From Caulobacteraceae bacterium (GTDB lineage Bacteria; Pseudomonadota; Alphaproteobacteria; Caulobacterales; Caulobacteraceae), in assembly GCA_947476325.1 (NCBI GenBank), contig CANJPZ010000012.1, forward strand, positions 1 to 64,000: a DNA stretch of 64,000 bases, read 5' to 3'. The notes beneath the pieces were generated by a model that did not search any database, was not told the origin of the DNA, and saw nothing but the letters and a program-made list of their open reading frames with translations. Below, piece by piece: positions 33,364-60,625 of the stretch. The position numbers and the translations under genes are program-made. Numbering within the stretch: position 1 is the first letter of the stretch; every line of letters begins with the position of its first letter.

Positions 33364-34341
33364 CTAGCCGCAGAACAGGCCCGCCGGCAGATAGGGCGGC
33401 TGGTGATGAAAGGGCGCGAACGTCACTATCGCGCGAGCCGACTTGTCCGGTTTGGGCGCGAGGGTCACGACAAACGGCACGCTCCCGTGAGCTGCGATTT
33501 TCGGCGCGCGGATCGGCGCCTCCATCTGCTGGGCTTTCAGCGAAGTGCCGAACCTGTCTACCGCCGCAACCCACAGCGGCGGAACATTGATCGGCCGGCG
33601 CCGGGTGTTGACGATCTTGCCTGTCACCCGCAGCACACGGGCGCCGGCTTCATACTGTTCGCGCACCACAATGTCCGACAGCCGTAGATCGGCGAACACG
33701 CCCGGCACATAGACACCGGCCACGCCCATGTTGTTTTCGCGCTCCAGCGTCCGAAGATTGATCTGAACCATCAGTTCTCGATCTGTGGCGTCTGGATCGA
33801 TCTGGGCCAGATCCTGGTAGTCCGCGACCCGCAGGTGGGCTTCGCTTGCAAGGCTCTGGGCTGTCTGAAAGGCCTTGACCGCCGCCTGACGCGCCAACTC
33901 GGTGGCCTTCAACACTTCAGTGTCACCTTCGCCGCGAGCTGCAGCAGCCCGCGCGGCGATCGCGGCCTGCTTCACCGTCTCGGCCGTTTCTCCGGCCCGC
34001 CACATGGCGATCTGCGCCTCATATTCGGAGTTGTAGAGTGCTTCCAGGCTGACATCACCGAGATCTTCACGCTGGCGGGGGGCGAAGGTGGGCCGGCATT
34101 CGTTGCGCGAATCCCGCGCCTCGAAGGCCTCCATATGGGCGGCCTGGGCGCTGTCCTTGAGTTCCTGCGGCATGAAGTAGGTTGCGCCGTCTCCGATCTC
34201 GGGCACGGGCGCCAGGGCATTGATGATCAGGGGCGAGACAGTGGTCACTGTCTCTTCCGGCGCGGCGCTGGCGACGGAACCGCACAGGGCTAGGGCGCAG
34301 ACCCCGGCCAGACAGGCCTGTAAAAAACAGTTTGGAGTCAT
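33364..34341 (-). CDS. Exported protein of unknown family (paralogue of 59414-60625)
   Basis: A 325-residue exported protein, ATG 34341 with GGGAGG upstream and signal peptide ending VASA. Residues about 25-60 hold VTTVSPLIINALAPV and GDGATYFMPQEL; about 60-190 is an Ala/Glu-rich helical region with ELARQAAVKAFQ and EAHLRVAD; about 225-325 is a beta domain (LRVTGKIVNTRRRP, then VPPLWVAAVDRFGTSLK) that looks like DUF3426/FxLYD. One Cys near 80 and one at the end could pair. It sits inside the otherwise standard hemC-hemD-mitofilin-hemY cluster. A full-length paralogue lies at 59414-60625. Function unknown. Confidence 0.75.
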   Translation of the reverse strand: MTPNCFLQACLAGVCALALCGSVASAAPEETVTTVSPLIINALAPVPEIGDGATYFMPQELKDSAQAAHMEAFEARDSRNECRPTFAPRQREDLGDVSLEALYNSEYEAQIAMWRAGETAETVKQAAIAARAAAARGEGDTEVLKATELARQAAVKAFQTAQSLASEAHLRVADYQDLAQIDPDATDRELMVQINLRTLERENNMGVAGVYVPGVFADLRLSDIVVREQYEAGARVLRVTGKIVNTRRRPINVPPLWVAAVDRFGTSLKAQQMEAPIRAPKIAAHGSVPFVVTLAPKPDKSARAIVTFAPFHHQPPYLPAGLFCG

Positions 34342-34363
34342 AACCCGCCTCCCTAGCGCACTG

Positions 34364-34393
34364 TTATATTGCTTTATATTGCTTTATATTGCG
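34364..34393. repeat. Three 10-bp AT-rich tandem repeats in promoter region
   Basis: TTATATTGCT, TTATATTGCT and TTATATTGCG in tandem. On the minus strand each unit contains AATATAA, a good -10-like element, and the last copy is 23 bases before the start of the gene ending at 34341. In a GC-rich genome this 10-bp AT periodicity suggests a curved or multi-start promoter. Confidence 0.8.
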
Positions 34394-59413: not shown

Positions 59414-60625
59414 GTGAGCCGCAGACAACCAACGCGCACGTTCATGGTCGGGCTCTGCGCGGCCGGCGTCGCCGTGACTCCTTTCTGGACCAGCGCCAGC
59501 CTTGCGCAGCAGGCGGCCCAGACCGTCGATGTGACGACCGTCTCGCCCCTGGTCATCACCCCCGGACCTCAGGTCGGCGCCGGCGCGACCTTCTTCTCGC
59601 TTCAGGATCTCTCCACCGCGGCGCTCGACGCCCGGGCCGAGGCCGCGGCGGCGCGCGACGCCGGGCGCGAATGCAAGTCAAACCAGGACGGCGCCTCGCA
59701 GTCCGAAGCCAATGGCGACTTCACCCTGGAGGCGCTCTACAACACCGAAAGCACGGTCCAGTTTGCCCTGCAGACCGCCGCCGAGGCGGCCCAGGCCGCG
59801 ACGCAGGTCGCGCTGGACGCGCGGTCCGGCGGACGCGATTCCGCCGCCGCCGAACTGGCCCGGCAGACTGCGGTCAAGGCCTATCAGGCGGCCAGCGCCC
59901 GGGCGGTTGAGGCCCACCTTCGGGTCGCTGATCTGCAGGACCAGATGCGTCTGCACCGCGATGAGAATCCGCGCCAGCTGCAGGCCTATGTGGATGCGAA
60001 AACCCTGGAGCGCTCGCGCAACGGCGGCGTCGCCGGCGTGTTTGTGCCGGACCAGTACAAGGACCTGGCCCTGTCCGACATCGCCGCCCAGGCCGGGCAG
60101 GACAAGGGCGCCGAAGTGCTGAAGATATCGGGGCGCATCAGCAACCCGCGCAAGGGCGCCATCGCCATTCCGCCCATGTGGTTCACCGCTGTCGACCGCT
60201 ATGGCACGCCGCTGAAATCCCAGCAGACCATCCCTGAACATCAGGGCCGTATCCCGCCGGGCGGCAGCCTGCCCTTTACCTTTGAACTCAAGCCCATGCC
60301 CGACAAGACCGCGCGGGCGGTTGTCACCTTTGCGCCGCAGAACCGTCCGCCACTCTACATGCCGGCCTCGATGTTCTGCGCCGGCGCCGGCGCGGGCGGA
60401 ACACCGCCACCACCCGCCCAGACCGGACCGGGTGACGGCGGCGGCGGACGGGCTGGCGCAGGCGCCGGACGGGCAGGCGCCGGGCGCGCCGGCGGCGCGG
60501 GCCGTGGCGGCATCGGCGGCCGAGGTGGCGGGCGAGGCGGTCTGGGCGGAGGCCGGGGCGGCCTGGGTGGCGGACTGGGGGGCCGGGGCGGCGGCGGCGG
60601 AACGCCGGGCGTCACCGGCGGCTGA
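59414..60625 (+). CDS. Exported protein with Gly/Arg-rich tail (paralogue of 33364-34341)
   Basis: A 403-residue exported protein. GTG 59414 is chosen because GGGGAGG ends six bases upstream; TTG 59408 would be too close. Signal peptide ends SLAQ. Shared with the gene at 33364-34341: VTTVSPLVI, GAGATFF, LEALYNTE, ELARQTAVKAYQ, EAHLRVAD, GVAGVFVP, AVDRYGTPLK and DKTARAVVTFAP, ending in a final Cys. The helical middle and DUF3426/FxLYD-like beta domain are the same. Unique here is a 75-residue Gly/Arg/Ala tail (GRGG and GLGG repeats). Function unknown. Confidence 0.75.
   Translation: MSRRQPTRTFMVGLCAAGVAVTPFWTSASLAQQAAQTVDVTTVSPLVITPGPQVGAGATFFSLQDLSTAALDARAEAAAARDAGRECKSNQDGASQSEANGDFTLEALYNTESTVQFALQTAAEAAQAATQVALDARSGGRDSAAAELARQTAVKAYQAASARAVEAHLRVADLQDQMRLHRDENPRQLQAYVDAKTLERSRNGGVAGVFVPDQYKDLALSDIAAQAGQDKGAEVLKISGRISNPRKGAIAIPPMWFTAVDRYGTPLKSQQTIPEHQGRIPPGGSLPFTFELKPMPDKTARAVVTFAPQNRPPLYMPASMFCAGAGAGGTPPPPAQTGPGDGGGGRAGAGAGRAGAGRAGGAGRGGIGGRGGGRGGLGGGRGGLGGGLGGRGGGGGTPGVTGG

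Follow-up and report, generated by a model that had tools for sequence, protein, structure and literature searches.

Exported, non-barrel proteins of a Caulobacteraceae genus carry putative TonB boxes in the style of their species' own receptors

Why should a gene for an exported protein of undescribed family stand inside a haem cluster, and what might its product do? The window analysed here, a stretch of 64,000 nucleotides, belongs to a Caulobacteraceae genome of 2.65 Mb in 39 contigs (G000), which was compared with that of a sister species (G001) and with the third genome of the genus (G002). An earlier note on this DNA had placed the gene at 33364-34341; it is present there on the minus strand, with an ATG start, and stops interrupt the plus strand of the same interval. 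The features of this gene product (W33) and of its paralogue in the window (W59) are as follows:

33364..34341, minus strand: W33, a 325-aa exported protein with a putative TonB box, a helical region and a DUF3426/FxLYD-like domain
34264..34341, minus strand: signal peptide of W33, approximately residues 1-26, with an Ala-x-Ala type site (assigned by eye)
34216..34248, minus strand: putative TonB box of W33, VTTVSPLIINA, residues 32-42, in a disordered tail
33733..34170, minus strand: helical region of W33, residues 58-203, of which 99-181 form a long hairpin
34096-34098, minus strand: Cys82 of W33, within the helical region
33406..33702, minus strand: beta-sandwich of W33, DUF3426/FxLYD-like, residues 214-312
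33370-33372, minus strand: Cys324 of W33, directly after the beta-sandwich
59414..60625, plus strand: W59, paralogue of W33, with the same architecture and in addition a Gly-rich C-terminal tail
59531..59563, plus strand: putative TonB box of W59, VTTVSPLVITP, residues 40-50
60383..60622, plus strand: Gly/Arg/Ala-rich tail of W59, residues 324-403, largely predicted to be disordered

Directly upstream of W33, at positions 34363-34392, a 10-bp unit (AATATAAAGC, minus strand) is directly repeated almost three times. These repeats were considered as a conserved upstream element and rejected, being absent upstream of the paralogues and receptors inspected.

The gene does split the haem cluster, as had been proposed, with W33 sitting between hemD on one side and the mitofilin-like gene and hemY on the other. 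The mitofilin gene follows hemD in G001, in G002 and in four or more further relatives of this bacterial family, and no family member stands between the two genes. The insertion occurs in this species only and does not speak for a haem link, which we rejected as an explanation of W33. At the same junction G001 carries an unrelated, oppositely oriented ORF of 131 aa (L072:1100-1495) and no remnant of W33, and the hemD-mitofilin junction may be insertion-prone.

The architecture of W33 agrees with the earlier description of an exported protein with a helical region and a DUF3426/FxLYD-like domain. The protein begins with a signal peptide, and no zinc ribbon was matched in a Pfam scan. It was also considered as a lipoprotein, a candidate rejected by eye for want of a proper lipobox, an Ala-x-Ala site being found instead. 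An AlphaFold2 model of W33 (pLDDT 81) has helices and a beta-sandwich besides a disordered tail; that of W59 is alike, and in both the putative TonB box falls in the disordered tail. The domain aligns with ZitP-type DUF3426 in a profile-profile comparison (hhalign probability 98%, E=2e-13), with no direct match of W33 to PF11906 (DUF3426) in the Pfam scan. Against the FxLYD model NF038353, W33 scores 17.6 bits, under the curated cut-off of 23, and the two-domain relatives described below score 26.8, 28.8 and 35.1 bits, above it. An outer-membrane beta-barrel is not predicted for the family, whose modelled fold consists of helices and a small beta-sandwich. Likewise, the plug domain PF07715 is absent from family members in Pfam scans, and a genome-wide plug search misses the family loci. 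Fold identity of the hairpin with AcrA/HlyD-type proteins was rejected: the match is uninformative, because a Z of about 8 is common among helical hairpins. Across 14 members C82 never varies and C324 hardly does, and the two could pair in the disulfide that had been suggested.

W59 is a genuine paralogue (48% identity over residues 7-324, E=2.5e-74), and all six of the quoted motifs were found in both proteins. After one of these, the motif described as a terminal FC, W59 continues for about 80 Gly/Arg/Ala-rich residues. Gly/Arg/Pro-rich terminal tracts of the GGRGG type are common in exported proteins of this genus, W59 included (for example, 60383-60622, L012:2005-3192, L066:8597-10366 and L067:7351-8097).

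The count of two paralogues 26 kb apart proved too low, since G000 has at least six copies: W33 and W59 on contig C12, a tandem pair on C3 and one each on C4 and C1. A further weak match at C4:134899 was judged spurious. One of the C3 paralogues (L004:485-1363) is missing a large part of the helical region but has kept its box, VTRVDPLIIRA, and the C-terminal domain. The sister species has about nine members, one of them interrupted by a stop codon (L015:1405-2034, contig C44), so that copies of the family decay as well as multiply. Synteny between G000 and G001 holds at three loci, the neighbouring genes being named by eye: CaiB-like and rhodanese-like genes flank the tandem copies, yebC and a gene for a TIGR00282-like phosphoesterase flank the C1 copy, and MBL-fold and epoxide-hydrolase-like genes lie near the C4 copy. 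In G002 there are two adjacent two-domain versions. A search of relatives' genomes had been proposed to gauge the spread of the family, and members do occur in other genomes of the genus. Full-length members were confined to this genus in an alignment search of 390 genomes of the bacterial family; the other genomes gave matches to the C-terminal domain only, which where inspected were zinc-ribbon DUF3426 proteins. It should be noted that five candidates were scored per genome in the searches of the family and the order, so that this spread is a lower bound. The description of the family as undescribed holds in profile scans, in which no Pfam or NCBIfam model covers it and the domain alone is FxLYD/DUF3426-like; a sequence-based search returned no solved structure among its relatives. 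A mobile or phage origin was rejected, no relatives having been found in viral contigs or plasmids.

The mature N-termini of the six G000 members contain VTTVSPLIINA, VTTVSPLVITP, VTTVSPLIITA, VTRVDPLIIRA, ITTVAPLIIHG and VTTVSPLTING. The earlier note had listed VTTVSPL as a shared motif and had not recognised a TonB box in it. The same genome encodes two TonB proteins of canonical layout (C5:82215 and C5:83702) and ten plug-domain receptors, whose boxes, directly behind the signal peptide, include VTTVAPLIITT, LTTVAPLIITG, VTTVDSLIISA, ITTVDALVVNA and VTTVDELIVVA. In W33 and W59 the segment starts about 4-8 residues into the mature protein, the distance found in the receptors. A matrix built from eight G000 receptor boxes alone gives 20-25.5 bits for all six paralogues, against 10.4 for the best of 429 unrelated ORFs, and none of 2000 shuffles reaches the score of any paralogue. 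Against this it counts that TonB boxes are short and degenerate and that the receptors behind the matrix number just eight. A search of G000 DNA for VTTV[AS]PL, allowing at most one mismatch, returned nine matches, comprising five family members, two receptors and others, and the reversed control returned none. Two of the boxes are weak, namely VTILSPLTAVG in G001 (5 bits) and DFVEGLNVAR in G002. The claim rests on G000, G001 and G588 (a genome introduced below), because the matrix from G002 receptors recognises the G002 members weakly. Fixed-position P values were set aside, since their null contained receptors and family members. Taken together, these sequence comparisons are strong evidence for the identity of the box.

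More distant relatives present a similar picture. A search of the order returned some domain matches from longer proteins, and the six taken are two-domain proteins of 558-700 aa (with uncertain start sites), which by eye are lipoproteins and carry the helix segment of the family along with the domain. In lipoprotein relatives of this kind from another family of the order, a box-like segment lies at the homologous position, about 100 residues behind the lipobox. In one such genome (G588), of which 400 kb with 347 ORFs were examined, the segment aligns with VTTVSPL of W33, and a shared [YFL][ST][PA] motif comes about 10 residues later. The pattern [DE]xV[VI][VI][TS][GASN] has four matches in these 347 ORFs, namely three receptors and the lipoprotein relative, a count that is descriptive only because the pattern was written after the relative had been seen. 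The lipoprotein relative and one G588 receptor share an identical DRVVVTG.

A box of this kind could be a relic, the exported N-terminus having been gained from a receptor gene by recombination, with no TonB function and all of the work left to the DUF3426-like domain. An N-terminal gene fusion would be an easy origin for a receptor-like box directly behind a signal peptide. Nevertheless, pN/pS is lower in the box than in any other family segment (0.46 in G000 and 0.58 overall, with flanks at 0.77-0.97), values that are only comparative because synonymous sites are near saturation, and the box is the most constrained segment although disordered. Synonymous codons differ within the box, and the likeness of the family to receptors stops at its end. 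These three observations indicate that selection keeps the box and that it is not a recent copy. A relic is also hard to reconcile with the distant lipoprotein relatives, in which the box is far from the signal peptide and in one case fits the style of that genome's own receptors, and we regard this explanation as unlikely.

Alternatively, the motif might be another N-terminal element common to exported proteins of both kinds, such as a site for a periplasmic chaperone, a protease or an outer-membrane targeting factor, which would account for its presence at an equal distance from the signal peptide in receptors and in the family. In receptors, however, both position and sequence mark this segment as the TonB box, and the forms found in other members, ETLTV in G001 and ETITV in G002, equal characterised boxes, ETLTV being the TonB box of colicin M (PMC11658791). 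The corresponding G588 segment, moreover, lies 107 residues into a lipoprotein, and we consider a non-TonB element distinctly improbable. To much the same low degree we credit the view that these are ordinary exported envelope proteins in a lineage-specific expansion, whose likeness to receptor boxes is due to chance. Duplication both in tandem and at dispersed sites, tails that vary and the stop-codon copy in G001 fit such an expansion, but the agreement of every G000 copy with the receptor-only matrix, far above all other ORFs, and the independent recurrence of the relation in G588 do not. Least probable by far is a bacteriocin-like product, exported and then using its box to enter relatives through a receptor: colicins that depend on TonB are the known box carriers besides receptors, and here too the box lies in a disordered N-terminus, but the signal peptide is cleavable, Pfam scans found no known killing domain, the inspected neighbourhoods of the copies contain no immunity-like or recurring partner gene, the DUF3426-like C-terminus is conserved and lipoprotein relatives exist.

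We are therefore left leaning, by a narrow balance, towards W33 and its paralogues being exported non-barrel clients of the Ton system, most likely docking on TonB as adaptors or competitors; that the family binds TonB, and with what partner and effect, is what we infer. Signal-peptide cleavage would leave a mature protein that starts with a flexible tail bearing the box, which, by analogy with receptors, would add a strand to the C-terminal domain of TonB (PMC11658791). The helical hairpin would act as a spacer. In Caulobacter, the DUF3426 domain of ZitP is required for CpaM recruitment and pilus assembly (PMC5182063), and by the same token the DUF3426/FxLYD-like domain probably binds a periplasmic or envelope partner. 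Docking could then recruit this partner to the motor or exert a pull on it, the docked protein would compete with receptors for TonB, and several paralogues could serve several partners. Because the single-domain form is soluble, recruitment or competition is more likely for it than pulling; without a membrane anchor, this form could pull only with a bound partner. The lipoprotein form could transmit force. The family loci show no genomic linkage to ton genes.

All three genomes of the genus also encode exported-looking proteins with roughly three to five TonB_C domains, accompanied in some of them by TPRs; they seem to lack TonB's membrane anchor and its Pro-rich spacer:

L147:1276-2409 (G000, C6:62134): multi-TonB_C protein, with three such domains
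L143:1342-2991 (G001): multi-TonB_C protein
L142:547-2172 (G002): multi-TonB_C protein

These periplasmic multi-TonB_C proteins are possible partners of the TonB-box proteins.

TonB is taken to energise receptors, and bacteriocins are regarded as parasites of the link between the two. If the client reading is true, these native box proteins that are not receptors, present at six to nine per genome and related to lipoproteins of a second bacterial family, would be further clients of the motor or competitors built into the cell. We would extend this, tentatively and at somewhat less than an even chance, to a third class of TonB-box proteins, next to receptors and bacteriocins. Such clients would be encoded by the cell itself, as periplasmic proteins or lipoproteins, and would link the Ton motor to something other than outer-membrane transport, whether that is the motor's target or its regulator; their boxes would keep pace with the receptor boxes of their species. 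In the open-access full-text literature, TonB boxes outside receptors were found in bacteriocins only.

Comparison with known systems shows how familiar the separate parts are. Like TonB-dependent receptors, the family has a signal peptide followed by a box of the same style 4-8 residues into the mature protein, but it has a helical region and a beta-sandwich in place of plug (PF07715) and barrel. With TonB-dependent bacteriocins such as colicin M (ETLTV; PMC11658791) it shares a non-barrel fold and a box in a disordered N-terminus, and differs from them in its signal peptides, its conserved DUF3426-like domain, its many chromosomal copies and its lack of a known toxin domain. By profile-profile match, the DUF3426-like domain is homologous to the periplasmic DUF3426 domain of ZitP-type zinc-ribbon proteins (PF11906; PMC5182063), whereas the family has neither zinc ribbon nor transmembrane helix and instead has a signal peptide, a putative TonB box and a helical hairpin. 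FxLYD proteins (NF038353) are of the same domain type, with box and hairpin lying outside the NF038353 model. A role for the Ton system beyond import is known from Myxococcus, in which secretion by Oar/PopC is TonB-dependent (PMC6434023), but there the box is that of the receptor Oar itself. Judged by its sequences, the family appears to be a new combination of known modules and, if the box works, would form a third class of TonB-box protein.
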